Below, in pieces: positions 21,852 to 27,431 of a stretch of DNA of 32,817 bases. Below the pieces are notes generated by a model. The model worked only from the letters and a program-made list of their open reading frames with translations, did not search any database and was not told the DNA's origin. The stretch comes from an uncultured Opitutia bacterium (GTDB lineage: Bacteria; Verrucomicrobiota; Verrucomicrobiia; Opitutales; UBA953): NCBI GenBank assembly GCA_903882335.1, contig CAIRWP010000028.1, positions 1-32,817 of the forward strand, written 5' to 3'. A program made the position numbers and the translations under genes. Position 1 is the stretch's first letter. Each line of letters begins with the position of its first letter.

Positions 21852-23849
21852 TCACCAGATCTTGACGCGCTGAGCGGGGTCGAGCCACATCGAATCGCCC
21901 GGCTTCGTGCCGAACGCCTCGTGGAACTCGTCGATGTTGCGCAGCACGACGTTGATGCGCTGGGGCATCGGGGAGTGGGTGTCGGACAGCAGGCGGTTCC
22001 GCAAGGTCTCCGGGCGGATGTTGCCGGCGAAGGCGAAGGCGTGCGCCAGGAAGAAACGCTGCAGCGGCGTCTGGCCCGCGATGAGCCGGCCGGAGCGGAA
22101 CGCCTCGGTCTCCCGGAAGGCGTCCAGCGCGATCGCCACGCCGCCGATGTCGGCGATGTTCTCGCCGAGGGTCAGCTTACCGTTGACGCGGATGCCCGGC
22201 AGCGGTTCCTCCCGGTCGTACTGGGCGACGATCCGGTCGCAGCGCTCGCGGAACGCCTTCTCCGTCGGCGGAGACCAGCCCTGCTCCAGGCGCCCCGTCG
22301 GACCGAAACGGCGCCCCGAGTCGTCGAACCCGTGCGTGAGCTCATGCCCGATGGTGCAGGCGATGAAGCCGTAGAGCACGGCGTCATCGAGCGCCTCGCC
22401 GTCGTACGTCGGCACCCCGAGGATGGCGGCGGGCATGACGATCTCGTTGTTCATCGGGCTGTAGTAGGCGTTGACCGTGTAGGGGCGCATACCCCACTCC
22501 TCGCGTTCCGGGGCGCCGCCGACCCGGGCGAACGTCCGGGCGCGCGACCACTTGCTGACGTTGACGAGGTTCTGGGCGAGGCCGTCGGCGCGGATCTCCA
22601 CGCCTTCGTAGCCGCGGAACTTATCGGGATAGCCCACGCGGAGCTTGATCGCGGCGAGTTTGCGTAAGGCCCACGCCTGCGTCTCGGCATCCATCCACTC
22701 CAGCTTGCGGATGCGGGCGGCGAAGGCGGTCCGGACGTTCTCGCAGACCAGGCGGAAACGTTCGCGCTGCGCCGGGGTGAAGCGGCGCGCCACGTATTCC
22801 TTGCCGAGTAGGTCGCCCAGGGCGCCATCCTGTATCCGCAAGGCCCGCTCCGGGAGACTGCGTTGCTGCTTGGCGCCGGTCAGGACGACGCCCTCGAACT
22901 CGAAGGCGGCGGCCGCCGTGGCGGCGTTGAGCACGGAAGCATGCCCGGAGATCGCCTGGAAGCGGAAGTAATCGCGGACCGCCTCCGCCGGGGTCTCGGC
23001 GAGGATCCGCGCCAAAGCCTTGAGGAAATCGGGCTGGCCGACGATGACGCGGGTGACCGCGGGGGCGCCGGCGCGCCGCGTGACGGCCTCCCAGCGCAGG
23101 CCGGGCGTGAGGGCGTCGATCTCCGCCCAGGACATCGGGTGGTAATGGGCGTCAGGGTTGCGCAGCTGCACCAGCGGCAAGGAGACTTCGGCGAGCCTGG
23201 TCTCGAACGCGAGGACCGCCGCGCCGGCCTGCCGGGCTCGCGCCGCGTCATAACCGAGGAAGCCCAGCATCTGGGCGACATGGGCGGGGAAGGCGTCCCG
23301 CACGCGCTTGGTGGCGGGCTCCTCGCTGAAATAGAACGCGCGCTCCGGGAGGGAGAGCCCCGTCTGCCAGAGCTGCAGCGCGACCTTCGTCTCGTCCTTC
23401 TTGTCCTGCCCAGCGAACACCCCGAGGAACGTCCCCGTGCCTTCGGCGTAGAGATCGGCGGCGGCCTCCAGGAGCGCCTGCGGCGTCTTGGCCTCGTCGA
23501 GCTTGGCCAGGACGGCGCGCAGCCCGGCCGGGAGCTCGGCCGGGCCGGCCTCGAAGCCGAGGGCGGAACGCCAGAAATCGGCGAGCCGACGCTGATCGGC
23601 GGTGGCGTCCGGCTTTGCGAGCAACTCGCCGTTGATCACGAGGAGGTCCTTCTTGATGAGGTCGTCCTGCCAGGCGAAGGAGTTGTAGACGGCCCGGTCG
23701 GGGGCCAAGGGGAAACGGCGTAGCCAGGCCCCGTTCGCATGCGTCCAGAAGTCCTGCCGGGCGGACACCGCCGGGTCGCGGTTGGCCTCGATGAGATCCG
23801 CCCCGGGCAGGGAAGTAGCCAGCAGGAGGGCGAGCAGGGGCGAACGCAT
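21852..23849 (-). CDS. secreted M13 (neprilysin-like) zinc metallopeptidase
   Basis: 665 residues, usual for bacterial PepO-type enzymes. A signal peptide covers about 1-16. It has FWTHANGAWL near 34-43 in the N-terminal M13 domain, VNAYYSPMNNEIVMPAAIL before the active site, zinc motif HELTH (His502, Glu503, His506), GENIADIGG with third ligand Glu563 and Asp567, and the family C-terminal Trp (VKIW). It cleaves oligopeptides outside the cytoplasm. It is the first gene of the five-gene operon, eight bases before the sulfatase. The 277-base upstream gap is shared with the sigma factor gene. The leader is C-rich with no Shine-Dalgarno sequence. Confidence 0.95.
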   Translation of the reverse strand: MRSPLLALLLATSLPGADLIEANRDPAVSARQDFWTHANGAWLRRFPLAPDRAVYNSFAWQDDLIKKDLLVINGELLAKPDATADQRRLADFWRSALGFEAGPAELPAGLRAVLAKLDEAKTPQALLEAAADLYAEGTGTFLGVFAGQDKKDETKVALQLWQTGLSLPERAFYFSEEPATKRVRDAFPAHVAQMLGFLGYDAARARQAGAAVLAFETRLAEVSLPLVQLRNPDAHYHPMSWAEIDALTPGLRWEAVTRRAGAPAVTRVIVGQPDFLKALARILAETPAEAVRDYFRFQAISGHASVLNAATAAAAFEFEGVVLTGAKQQRSLPERALRIQDGALGDLLGKEYVARRFTPAQRERFRLVCENVRTAFAARIRKLEWMDAETQAWALRKLAAIKLRVGYPDKFRGYEGVEIRADGLAQNLVNVSKWSRARTFARVGGAPEREEWGMRPYTVNAYYSPMNNEIVMPAAILGVPTYDGEALDDAVLYGFIACTIGHELTHGFDDSGRRFGPTGRLEQGWSPPTEKAFRERCDRIVAQYDREEPLPGIRVNGKLTLGENIADIGGVAIALDAFRETEAFRSGRLIAGQTPLQRFFLAHAFAFAGNIRPETLRNRLLSDTHSPMPQRINVVLRNIDEFHEAFGTKPGDSMWLDPAQRVKIW

Positions 23850-23909: not shown

Positions 23910-23941
23910 GCCGGGGCTTGGACCGTTTGACAGGCCCCGGC
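23910..23941. promoter_or_regulatory. GC-rich inverted repeat enclosing a TTGACA
   Basis: Arms GCCGGGGC (23910-23917) and GCCCCGGC (23934-23941) enclose a 16-base loop that contains TTGACA (23927-23932). A smaller repeat, CCCTA-TTT-TAGGG (23884-23896), lies to its left. The structure is in the divergent gap between the M13 operon and the sigma factor, so a regulator or a cruciform could affect either promoter. Confidence 0.35.
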
Positions 23942-23955
23942 GAGCGGGCAGATTA
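23927..23955 (+). promoter_or_regulatory. candidate promoter of the sigma factor gene
   Basis: A perfect -35 hexamer TTGACA (23927-23932) is followed after 17 bases by AGATTA (23950-23955), a poor -10. This would give a leader of about 165 bases containing the palindrome at 24018-24034. The poor -10 could mean the match is chance, or that a factor with different -10 preference reads it. Confidence 0.25.
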
Positions 23956-24017
23956 CCCCTCGCCCACCCCCGGGCCCGGCGGACGCCCTGGCGCCGGAAA
24001 AATCTACGCGAAGGATT

Positions 24018-24034
24018 TCATTGTCAGACAATGA
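24018..24034. promoter_or_regulatory. 17-bp perfect palindrome upstream of the sigma factor
   Basis: TCATTGTC, one central A, then GACAATGA. The arms are perfect 8-mers in a locally AT-rich stretch of otherwise very GC-rich DNA, 92 bases before the sigma start codon. A related half-site TCATTGGTC follows at 24044-24052. It has the size and symmetry of an operator for a dimeric repressor. A second short palindrome, TCTATAGA, lies at 24077-24084. Confidence 0.6.
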
Positions 24035-24126
24035 CTTAGGAAATCATTGGTCCGAAAAGGGCATTTTCCGGCCCCTTCTATAGAGGCCATTTACTTTTTA
24101 TTAGAAACCACCCCACCCCTTTCCAC

Positions 24127-25128
24127 ATGATCCAAACCCAACTCCTCCAAGACCTCCGCCTGCCGACCAGCACCCTCCCCGCCCCGACCCACGACCGCCA
24201 CCCGAACCAGGAGACCGCCGCTGATTCCTCGACCCTGTCCGAGCTCGCCGCGCTCGCGGCCCAGGCCTTCGCCGAGGAGCCCACCGAGTTCGACGGCCTC
24301 GGCGACTACCTCCGCCGCGCCTGCCACCGCGATAAGCTCGAACCCGCCGAGGAGACCGCGCTGGGTCGCGCCCTGCGCGCCGGTCGCCGGGCCGACGGCT
24401 CGTTCACGCCGGCGGCGCGGCTCGCCTACGATGAGTTCGTCGAACGCAACCTGCGCCTGGTCGTCTACTTCGCCAAGCGTTTCGCCCGGAGCCGCGATGA
24501 CCTGCTGGACCTGATCAGCGCGGGCAACCTGGGCCTGATGACCGCGACCCAGAAGTTCGACCCCGAGCGCGGCATCCGTTTCAGTACCTTCGCGGCGTGG
24601 GACATCCACAGTCAGATCGTGGCGGAGGTGCGCCAGCGCCAGCGCCCGGTGCACCTGCCGCGCAACCTCCACGAGCAGCTGACCGCGGCCCGGCGCGCGG
24701 AGGCCGAGCTGACGCAGCAGCTCGGACGCGAGCCCACCGAGACCGAGGTCTCCTTGGAACTGGGTTGGGCGCCCGACCACCTGACGGACCTGCGCCGGCT
24801 GACGCAGGCCGGCGTCTCGCTCGACGCCCCGCCGGAAAACGACGGCGGACTCACCCTGGCGGACCGCCTGAAGGACGAGGCGGCAACGGACCCGGCGCAC
24901 GCGGCGGAACGCTCCGACCGCGCGACCTTCGCCCGCGCCCTGCTCGACCATCTCGACGGACGCGAGCGCCGCATCCTCTGCCTACGCCACGGGATCGGGA
25001 CCGACCATGAATGGACGCTCGAGGAGATCGGCGCCGCCCTGGGCGTCACCCGCGAACGCGTCCGCCAGCTCGAGGGCATCGCGCTGCAGAAGCTCCGGAC
25101 CGAGGCGGCCGCGCGGCCCGCGGCCTAA
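24127..25128 (+). CDS. sigma-70 family RNA polymerase sigma factor (primary-like, divergent region 2.4)
   Basis: 333 residues. It has a non-conserved N-terminus to about 55, a region 1.2-like segment (DGLGDYLRRA, 56-65), regions 2.1-2.3 (ERNLRLVVYFAKRF 106-119, DLLDLISAGNLGLMTATQKFDPERGIRFSTFAAW to 158), region 3 (SLDAP, 231-235), and region 4.2 (TLEEIGAALGVTRERVRQLE, 297-316) that closely matches primary sigma factors. Region 2.4 does not: the usual tract around W-W-I-R-Q-A-I reads W-D-I-H-S-Q-I (158-164), replacing the second Trp and the Gln that contacts the -10 element. Region 1.1 is absent, so it is probably an alternative (group 2-like) factor. Its upstream gap carries palindromes. The leader is CCACCCCACCCCTTTCCAC. 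Confidence 0.9.
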   Translation: MIQTQLLQDLRLPTSTLPAPTHDRHPNQETAADSSTLSELAALAAQAFAEEPTEFDGLGDYLRRACHRDKLEPAEETALGRALRAGRRADGSFTPAARLAYDEFVERNLRLVVYFAKRFARSRDDLLDLISAGNLGLMTATQKFDPERGIRFSTFAAWDIHSQIVAEVRQRQRPVHLPRNLHEQLTAARRAEAELTQQLGREPTETEVSLELGWAPDHLTDLRRLTQAGVSLDAPPENDGGLTLADRLKDEAATDPAHAAERSDRATFARALLDHLDGRERRILCLRHGIGTDHEWTLEEIGAALGVTRERVRQLEGIALQKLRTEAAARPAA

Positions 25129-25199: not shown

Positions 25200-26510
25200 A
25201 TGATCGACGTCATGGCTCTCCGCCGCCCCGCCCTCCTGCTGGCCGCCACGCTGGCGCTGCGCGGAACCCTCGGTGCCCAGAACCACGAGCCTTTCGAGGA
25301 CCCGCCGATCAACTACTCCACGACGGTGCCGGTGGACGCCGTCTCCCGCCTGAACGCGGCCATGGCGAAACAGGCGGAGGAAATCCGCGGCTGGCCCGCG
25401 CGGCGCCGGTTACGTTGGTTACTCGAGCAGTTGCAGGTGCCGGTGGAGTCCCAGCTGCTCGTCTTCGGCAAGACCAGCCTGCAGCGCGGGCTCATCTCGC
25501 CCGGCAATCCCCGGGCGCTGTATTTCTCCGACGAGGCCTACGTCGGCTGGGTACCCGGCGGTGCCATCGAGATCACCGTCTTCGACCCCGTGCTGGGTGC
25601 GACCTTCTACGTGCTCGACGCCCAGCAGCCAGAGACGGCGCCGTTGATCGCGCGCAGCCAGGAGTGCCTGCTCTGCCACGCTCACCATGATCACACCCCC
25701 TCGCTGCGCGCGCGCTCGGTCTTCCCGGACGCGACCGGCGAACCGCTCAGCGGCTCGGGGAGCTCCAACATCGCGCCGGACACCCCGCTGGCGGAACGCT
25801 GGGGCGGCTGGTACGTCACCGGCCGGCCCAGCGGGCTGCGGCACCGGGGCAACGTCACCGGCAAGACAACCGAGGATTTCACGGGCGACGCCGGGTTGCG
25901 CGGCGAGGTGCGCCCGGAGCTACCCGCCGGCCCCGACGCCGCGCGCTACCCGCGGGCGACGAGCGATATCGTGGCGCTGCTGCTGCATGACCATCAGGTG
26001 CACGTGCACAACGTGCTCTCCGCCGCCAACCAGCAGGCGCGGATCGCGCTCTTCCGCTGGCCGGCGATGCGCGAGCTCCTGCAGCTGCCCGCGAACTCCG
26101 CGCCCGCCGGCTCCTGCCTGGTCGTCCTGAACAGCCAGGCGGAGAAGGTGATCGAAGCCCTGCTGTGCAAGGGCGAGGCAGCCTTCCCGGCCGGGGGCGC
26201 GCAGGGCGACGGGGCCTTCGAGAAAATCTATGCCGCCAGCCGCCGGGCGGACGACCGCGACCGCTCCCTGCGCGACCTCGACCTCCGGACGCGCCTGTTC
26301 AGGTACCGCTGCAGCCCGCTGATCTACGCGCGGACCTTCGAGGCGATGCCCAAGGAACTCCGGACCGTCGTGCTGCGCCGCCTCTCCGTCGGCCTGCGCG
26401 CCGCGACCCCGGCACCGGAGTTCGCCCACCTGCCGGCCGACGAACGCCAGGCCATCCACGAGATCCTGACGGCGACCTTGCCCGACCTTCCCGCGGACTG
26501 GGGGAAGTAG
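25200..26510 (+). CDS. exported mono-haem protein of an uncharacterised family
   Basis: 436 residues from the ATG at 25200 (a second ATG at 25212 is equally compatible). The N-terminus is a signal peptide ending near LGAQ (24-27). I know this architecture only as conserved uncharacterised PVC-type proteins: INYSTTVPVD (37-46), LLVFGKTSLQRGLISP (86-101), RALYFSDEAYVGWVPGG (105-121), then one cytochrome c motif CLLCH (Cys156/Cys159/His160) and WGGWYVTGRPSG (201-212). An electron-transfer or haem-sensing role in the periplasm is inferred from the motif only. The gene follows the sigma factor by 71 bases on the same strand and may belong to its operon. GGGGTGACC before the ATG is a weak ribosome binding site. 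Confidence 0.7.
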   Translation: MIDVMALRRPALLLAATLALRGTLGAQNHEPFEDPPINYSTTVPVDAVSRLNAAMAKQAEEIRGWPARRRLRWLLEQLQVPVESQLLVFGKTSLQRGLISPGNPRALYFSDEAYVGWVPGGAIEITVFDPVLGATFYVLDAQQPETAPLIARSQECLLCHAHHDHTPSLRARSVFPDATGEPLSGSGSSNIAPDTPLAERWGGWYVTGRPSGLRHRGNVTGKTTEDFTGDAGLRGEVRPELPAGPDAARYPRATSDIVALLLHDHQVHVHNVLSAANQQARIALFRWPAMRELLQLPANSAPAGSCLVVLNSQAEKVIEALLCKGEAAFPAGGAQGDGAFEKIYAASRRADDRDRSLRDLDLRTRLFRYRCSPLIYARTFEAMPKELRTVVLRRLSVGLRAATPAPEFAHLPADERQAIHEILTATLPDLPADWGK

Positions 26511-26575: not shown

Positions 26576-27382
26576 TTACTTGGCGAGCGCGGCGAGCTTC
26601 TCGCGGATGGCGTCGGCCTCGATCTGGTAGCCCTTGGCGTTCAGGTGCAGCAGGTCGGGCATGATCTCCTTGGAGAGCGTGCCGTCGGCGGTAAGGAACT
26701 TCGGTCCGATGTCGAAGTAGTGCACCTTCTGGCCGTCGTCGAACTTGGCGATCAGGGCGTTGACGGCCTTGTTCTTGGTCCGGCCGGGGTTGTTGGCCTC
26801 GCCGGCGCCGCGCGGGAAGATCGCGAGGAGCAGGACCTTGGTATCGGCCGAACGCTTATGGATGGCGGCGATGATGTTCTTGATGCCGCCCGCGATCTGC
26901 TCGGGGGAGTTCTCGGCGACGCCGGCGTTGTTGGTGCCGATCATGAGGACGACGACCTTCGGCTTGATGCCTTCGAACTCGCCGTTCTCGACGCGCCAGA
27001 GCACGTGCTGGACGCGGTCGCCGCCGATGCCGAAGTTCACGGCCTTGTACTGGGCGTATTCTTTCTCGAAGAGCGCCTTCTGGCCGTTCCAACCGGCGGT
27101 GATGGAGTCACCGAGGAAGACGACCTGGGCTTCGCCCTTCTTGGCGAGCGCGACGAAGGATTCGTGCGACTTCACGAAACCGGCCTGCGGCTGGCCGTCG
27201 TTGCCGAGCTTAGGGGCGGCGACATCGGCGGGCTGGGCGGGCAGCTTCACCGCCGGGGCCTTGGCCGCGGGGGCCTTGGCGGCCGGCTTGACGTCGGCGG
27301 CGGGCTTCTTCGCCTCGTCGGCGGCGAAGGCGGAGGCACCGAGGAAGGCGGCGCCGAGGAACAGGGTATGGAGGGGCTTCAT
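26576..27382 (-). CDS. secreted SGNH/GDSL-family hydrolase
   Basis: 268 residues from the ATG at 27382. A signal peptide covers about 1-21, then a Lys/Ala/Pro-rich linker to about 55. SGNH blocks: VVFLGDSITAGW (87-98, nucleophile Ser93), FGIGGDRVQHVLWR (117-130, block II Gly), MIGTNN (147-152, block III Asn151), and DLLHLNAKGY (243-252, Asp243 and His246). The spacing resembles the PAF-acetylhydrolase-like subgroup. It removes an ester such as acetyl, probably from a carbohydrate or lipid outside the cytoplasm; the substrate is not readable. The leader is CTGCTCCCACCCC before the ATG with no Shine-Dalgarno sequence. Transcription diverges from the cupin gene. Confidence 0.92.
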   Translation of the reverse strand: MKPLHTLFLGAAFLGASAFAADEAKKPAADVKPAAKAPAAKAPAVKLPAQPADVAAPKLGNDGQPQAGFVKSHESFVALAKKGEAQVVFLGDSITAGWNGQKALFEKEYAQYKAVNFGIGGDRVQHVLWRVENGEFEGIKPKVVVLMIGTNNAGVAENSPEQIAGGIKNIIAAIHKRSADTKVLLLAIFPRGAGEANNPGRTKNKAVNALIAKFDDGQKVHYFDIGPKFLTADGTLSKEIMPDLLHLNAKGYQIEADAIREKLAALAK

Positions 27383-27402: not shown

Positions 27403-27431
27403 CTTCTCGCCCCGTGGTTCCCGCCTGTCAA
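27403..27431 (-). promoter_or_regulatory. candidate promoter of the SGNH hydrolase gene
   Basis: On the minus strand TTGACA (27431 to 27426) is followed after 17 bases by GAGAAG (27408 to 27403), a weak -10. It would start a transcript about 15 bases before the ATG, right at a CATTGTC heptamer. Such a short leader suits a start codon without a Shine-Dalgarno sequence. Confidence 0.3.

Follow-up and report, generated by a model that had tools for sequence, protein, structure and literature searches.

Does a sigma factor whose −35-reading helix is normal and whose −10-reading surface is rewritten recognise an unusual class of promoters? This question is raised by a gene in the window, which is the whole 32,817-nucleotide stretch of DNA analysed here, from an uncultured Opitutia bacterium. 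The gene encodes a sigma factor named SIGX here, for which the original prediction was a TTGACA-like −35 element combined with an unusual −10 element. The protein half of this prediction stands, the −35 helix being normal and the other surface rewritten, but the DNA half is not established.

SIGX and its place among the sigma factors

24127–25128, + strand: SIGX gene, sigma-70-family factor of 333 amino acids (Pfam regions 2, 3 and 4; same-locus orthologues)

SIGX belongs to the sigma-70 superfamily, as the Pfam domains Sigma70_r2, Sigma70_r3 and Sigma70_r4 match it with 61.2, 58.1 and 64 bits, respectively, all above the gathering score of about 24–25. The score of SIGX stays below the cut-off of each NCBIfam model of a particular class: the top match is RpoS (TIGR02394, 195.7 bits against a cut-off of 378.7), followed by RpoD (TIGR02393, 181.5 against 354), FliA/WhiG of group 3 (TIGR02479, 112.5 against 189.6) and RpoH (TIGR02392, 108.1 against 323.1). 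The extracytoplasmic-function factors (ECF, group 4) have regions 2 and 4 without region 3, and region 3 is present in SIGX. Region 2.4 of SIGX reads WDIHSQIVA, as opposed to WWI[RK]Q in the group 2 relatives examined, so that SIGX is not near RpoD in this respect. The same genome also encodes a canonical RpoD (FSTYATWWIRQAI, L002) and a second sigma factor of group 2 type (LSTYAAWWIKQAI, L003). The features that we propose for a SIGX family are all seen in the window: a locus between the sulfatase or M13 peptidase gene and the haem-motif gene, a residue other than Trp at position 434, Ser (once Ala) at position 437, and Arg or Lys at position 454.

Residues of regions 2.4, 3.0 and 4.2

24598–24624, + strand: codons of region 2.4, residues 158–166, WDIHSQIVA (translation and family alignment)
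24643–24675, + strand: codons of region 3.0, residues 173–183, RPVHLPRNLHE (family alignment)
25015–25098, + strand: codons of region 4.2, residues 297–324, canonical −35-reading helix (translation and family alignment)

Positions are numbered against E. coli sigma70, with residues 158–164 of SIGX corresponding to positions 433–439. Both the translation and the family alignment bear out the claim that the usual WWIRQAI has become WDIHSQI at these residues. Region 2.4 is FSTFAAWDIHSQIVAEV in SIGX, compared with FSTYATWWIRQAITRSI in the RpoD of the same genome and LSTYAAWWIKQAIKRAL in its other group-2-type sigma factor, and the substitutions are W434 to Asp, R436 to His, Q437 to Ser, T440 to Val and R441 to Ala, with W433 retained. 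In region 3.0, R451 has been replaced by His, V454 by Arg and H455 by Asn, with E458 retained. Residues 297–316, TLEEIGAALGVTRERVRQLE, are almost canonical, as had been claimed, and the −35 readers R584, E585, R588 and Q589 are retained as R309, E310, R313 and Q314. The counterparts of K426, F427, T429 and Y430 of region 2.3 and of N383 and L386 of region 2.1, which we take from sigma70 structures to be the pocket residues for A-11 and T-7, are identical or conservatively changed.

W433, W434, Q437, R441, R451, V454, H455 and E458 are 100% conserved across 1002 primary sigma factors (Bae et al. 2015, PMC4593229, Table 3). Six of these eight residues are altered in SIGX, W433 and E458 alone being retained, and so SIGX lacks the full set of invariants of a group 1 factor. 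In the open complex T-12 is seated on W434 (PMC4593229), and in E. coli sigma70 a T-to-C change at −12 is suppressed by Q437H and T440I (PMC2613000). The Trp dyad is not conserved among the alternative sigma factors, where its absence may weaken melting and fine-tune specificity (Bae et al., PMC4593229).

A protein that has kept its core-binding residues and its −35 helix and is missing Trp434 and most −12-reading residues could act as a decoy or competitor, binding core polymerase or −35 DNA, melting poorly and thereby repressing. This is very improbable, because Trp433, the melting wedge, is present in 29 of 30 aligned members of the family, the A-11 pocket is intact, and active alternative sigma factors commonly lack the Trp pair (PMC4593229).

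Distribution and constraint of SIGX in the genus

An orthologue of SIGX is found at the same locus in more than 30 genomes of one genus, which are nearly all of its members: it is encoded in 33 of the first 36 genomes of the genus as well as in G059, G060, G061 and G211, and G057 has a SIGX-type promoter and the next gene. The genus genomes without SIGX (G006, G017, G030, G174 and, by all signs, G058) are small, 0.9–1.4 Mb. The order and orientation of the neighbouring genes are essentially constant in the 20 loci compared, apart from an optional insert, the M13 peptidase gene. This gene lies at 21852–23849 on the − strand of the window and is located between the sulfatase gene and SIGX in some species of the genus only. 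SIGX orthologues are mostly 41–48% identical (74% for G059, the nearest relative), compared with roughly 60–90% for the neighbouring genes, and so SIGX diverges far faster than its surroundings.

In a profile search of 177 genomes of the order, members of the genus score 328–493 bits and no other genome exceeds 256 bits. Of the 103 nearest relatives from outside the genus (79 among the matches listed and 24 from a wider search), every one has the Trp pair and all but one have Q437; one named relative is a metagenome-assembled genome listed as Opitutus sp. GAS368 (order Opitutales). In the tree, SIGX forms a single clade with a support of 100/100 on a long stem of 0.8 changes per site.

An alignment of 30 SIGX sequences shows that S162, R179, N180 and E183 are invariant, that Trp158 is present in all sequences but one, and that position 434 is Gly, Ala, Asn, Ser, Asp or His and never Trp. 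Conservation is highest in region 3.0, where the mean entropy is 0.51 against 1.16 for the whole protein. The wider search adds G061, with Pro434, Lys454 and His455, and G060, with Ala437, so that position 437 is Ser in every member but G060 and positions 454–455 are Arg-Asn in nearly all. Region 2.4 of G059 is exactly WDIHSQI, and WDIHS is far from being a common variant, being found only in the window and in this nearest relative. The alignment of homologues that had been proposed as a check thus shows a rewriting that is nearly fixed throughout the genus and under purifying selection, dN/dS being 0.05–0.2 in close pairs (in distant pairs the synonymous sites are saturated, which makes the values unreliable). 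Since the −35 readers are retained, the rewriting is nearly fixed and selection is evident, a normal −35 reader with a changed −10 reader is well founded for the protein. The near-fixation of Ser437, Arg454 and Asn455 suggests a positive role in recognition rather than a mere loss.

The fast divergence of SIGX and its absence from some small genomes of the genus would be expected of a decaying or non-functional protein, in which region 2.4 has changed because a duplicate sigma factor that can be dispensed with is no longer tightly constrained. That reading is scarcely credible, being already disfavoured by the selection data, by intact reading frames in the orthologues and invariant residues on the DNA-reading surface, and by the conservation of the promoter and leader across the genus. 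SIGX is thus a real alternative sigma factor under selection, restricted to the genus among the genomes scanned.

Promoter and leader of the SIGX gene

23927–23954, + strand: conserved promoter of the SIGX gene, TTGACA at 23927–23932, 16 nucleotides, CAGATT at 23949–23954 (34 orthologous upstream regions)
24000–24126, + strand: conserved leader or control region of the SIGX gene (conserved in orthologues)

The window contains exactly two TTGACA sites, one at 23927 on the + strand and one at 27431–27426 on the − strand, with 4.4 occurrences expected by chance. As had been reported, they precede the starts at 24127 and 27382; the distances are 200 and 44 nucleotides, respectively. The first belongs to a promoter that in most species has the form TTGAC[AG]-N16-CATAAT, about 170–200 nucleotides 5′ of the SIGX start codon. 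The pattern TTGAC-N-N16-[CT]ANNN[TC] is found in 27 of the 34 SIGX upstream regions, compared with 0.11 on average in shuffled sequences and 0 on the opposite strand, and the spacer is sharply 16 nucleotides. Six members of the WAIYSLI clade have a TTGCG-N16-TATACT-like (TAnnnT) site instead, and among the 34 regions no clear promoter site was found before SIGX in G061. The possibility that CAT of CATAAT is the start codon of the divergent gene was rejected, as the corresponding peptide shows no conservation and the start of the sulfatase gene lies further on.

Of 33 related genomes, 21 have C and 12 have T at position −12 of this promoter, and none has A or G, although these counts are not independent. 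C at −12 is attractive because SIGX is devoid of W434 and Q437, the residues tied to this position. The −10 element itself can change with an identical region 2.4, as in CAGATT of the window and TAGTCT of G059, and in each of the pairs L029/L030, L014/L015 and window/G059 one member has C and the other T at −12, with the same region 2.4 in both. The conservation of a promoter in front of its own gene hints at autoregulation of SIGX, which, taken alone, we regard as possible rather than probable.

The leader of about 120 nucleotides contains an AT-rich block, an inverted repeat near 24021–24032 and the block CCCCTTCTATAGAGGCC at 24072–24088, which is present in a single copy in every genome but one, and its length is unusual for a genus with many leaderless messages. 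A structured RNA was rejected, since conserved pairs and Rfam matches were not found in the leader and the energies are weak. The block CCCTATATATACAGGCC just 5′ of the SIGX start was rejected as a regulon motif, since each genome has one copy, at the SIGX gene only, apart from one extra copy in one genome, and the block is therefore no promoter shared with other genes. The rpoS and rpoH genes have long regulated leaders, and by likeness to these the SIGX leader may possibly serve post-transcriptional control; alternatively, its blocks may bind regulators or have a role at the divergent gene.

Ordinary promoters of the genus and other candidate targets

27431–27426, − strand: TTGACA 44 nucleotides before the GDSL-lipase start at 27382 (sequence)

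All 16 syntenic relatives with a readable upstream region have this TTGACA conserved, and its −10 region is poor and GC-rich. It is followed after 16–17 nucleotides by a CGAAA[AT]-like sequence rather than TAnnnT. The original prediction took this site to fit use by SIGX, and this is not borne out: G017 and G174 have a similar TTGACA before their best GDSL homologue (57–61% identical) without having SIGX, and hence the site is no evidence for SIGX and does not appear to depend on it. TTGACA-N16-CGAAA[AT] was also rejected as a class of SIGX promoters, as its matches are mostly the GDSL gene throughout the genus together with scattered single matches.

In 400 kb of a related genome, G015 (L164–L183), with genes called by a simple codon-usage script, ordinary promoters take the form TTG[AC]C-N15..17-nAnnnT with A, C, G or T at −12; this two-box motif was fitted without using −12 to a small set whose starts are not mapped experimentally, and a reverse-complement control of the fit also gave a pattern, although a different one. 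Many G015 genes seem to be leaderless, with TTG[AC]C at −34/−35 and a degenerate nAnnnT at −12 to −7 from the ATG. The genes behind the ordinary promoters include some that presumably encode tsaE-, rlmI- and bcp-like proteins and a LON-domain protein, as recognised by sequence. Since such promoters are themselves degenerate at −12, C at this position is not diagnostic of another reader, a weak promoter of RpoD being expected to look alike, and its use as proof of a special reader was withdrawn. The claim that poor −10 matches would fit SIGX therefore holds in part: the site at 23927 is a conserved promoter with an off-consensus −10 element, but poor −10 matches are also seen in ordinary promoters of the genus. 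A search of 41 genomes for TTGACR-N16-CATAAT returned essentially the SIGX gene alone, and with one mismatch allowed it gave no convincing conserved second target. A literature search on sigma factors, promoters and leaderless messages in Verrucomicrobiota gave nothing usable.

These promoters bear on the reading that the specificity of SIGX largely overlaps that of RpoD. On this reading the missing Trp434 and Gln437 would chiefly weaken melting and so raise stringency, with little effect on −10 choice, and RpoD would transcribe SIGX from an ordinary weak promoter. The promoter of the SIGX gene does lie within the ordinary range of the genus, TTG[AC]C-N16-nAnnnT, its −12 base alternates between C and T without any change in region 2.4, the pocket residues for A-11 and T-7 are retained, and weakened melting is the effect that Bae et al. 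consider for sigma factors without the Trp dyad (PMC4593229). However, the near-fixed Ser437, Arg454 and Asn455 are more than losses, and −12 is never A or G before SIGX, unlike in the listed ordinary promoters. We give this reading a real but minor chance.

The gene behind SIGX

25212–26510, + strand: next gene, protein of 432 amino acids with the haem motif CLLCH (co-occurrence within the genus)

The product of the next gene has no match in Pfam, NCBIfam or PDB and is 61–82% identical among relatives. The gene is present in 35 of 41 genus genomes and absent wherever SIGX is absent; the exceptions to the pairing are G029, which has SIGX without it, and G003, where the contig ends. Rare homologues elsewhere in the phylum, with 36–40% identity, have no sigma factor gene within about 1.5 kb. 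Because it is found within the genus only together with SIGX and directly behind it, the haem-motif gene is the best candidate for a partner or target of SIGX.

A plausible mode of promoter recognition by SIGX

Judged from its residues, SIGX likely has an altered DNA specificity, and we consider it rather probable that it is an active sigma factor with changed recognition of the −10 region. SIGX would have arisen, or been acquired, once in the genus and then become fixed in most of its genomes. Its core-binding region, its −35-reading helix and the A-11/T-7 pocket residues in regions 2.1 and 2.3 have been retained, and the surface that contacts double-stranded DNA from −12 to −15 has been replaced, with Ser437 and Arg454-Asn455 and without the seat provided by Trp434. 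Such a factor should bind a TTGAC-like −35 element and remain dependent on A-11 and T-7, but its reading of −12 to −15 should differ, with C at −12 tolerated or preferred. It should also melt promoters with more difficulty than RpoD does, which would make it selective. Its most likely first target would be its own promoter, TTGAC-N16-[C/T]AnnnT, driving SIGX and probably the haem-motif gene.

The promoter form TTGAC-N16-CATAAT goes with the WGIRSAV clade and TTGCG-N16-TATACT with the WAIYSLI clade. A more specific hypothesis is that SIGX reads a new class of −10 elements, in which −12 is C or T, −13 to −15 are contacted differently and A-11 and T-7 are kept, that it controls itself, and that sigma factor and promoter have diverged together; we hold it to be rather doubtful. 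If it were true, one genus would contain a natural series of partly orthogonal sigma–promoter pairs. Changes in −10 specificity are known mostly from single sigma70 mutants and from a few mutually distant alternative sigma factors. Here, a single locus provides over 30 orthologous sigma factors that have WD, WG, WS, WN, WA, WP or MH in region 2.4; nearly all adjoin a conserved promoter, and the same cells also have a canonical RpoD. Should the rewritten surface indeed alter specificity, the successive steps would be directly assayable within the SIGX family.

Comparison with known sigma factors

Regions 2 to 4 of SIGX align with RpoD/SigA over about 230 residues, and the −35 helix and the A-11 pocket are shared. 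SIGX differs in the absence of the long N-terminal part and in the changes at W434, Q437, R441, R451, V454 and H455. With RpoS and other group 2 factors SIGX has in common a size of about 330 amino acids, the domain order and the status of a paralogue present in addition to RpoD, and rpoS has a long leader, as does the SIGX gene. In contrast, WW is present in every group 2 factor found here and Q437 in nearly every one; SIGX has neither.

RpoH (sigma32), like SIGX, departs from the Trp pair and Gln437. Sigma32 retains the second Trp and loses the first, which is the reverse of SIGX. The −10 element of E. coli sigma32 promoters is CCCCATnT (PMC6687850), with C next to A, like CATAAT before SIGX. 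Unlike for RpoH, there is no heat-shock context around SIGX, and its annotated neighbours include no motility, sporulation or anti-sigma genes. The I-R-G-A of FliA-type region 2.4 resembles the W-G-I-R-S-A-V of many SIGX members. SIGX nevertheless scores below the cut-offs for both FliA/WhiG and SigB/F/G, its −35 helix is of the RpoD type and, in further distinction from group 3, a region 1.2-like stretch is still recognisable in SIGX.
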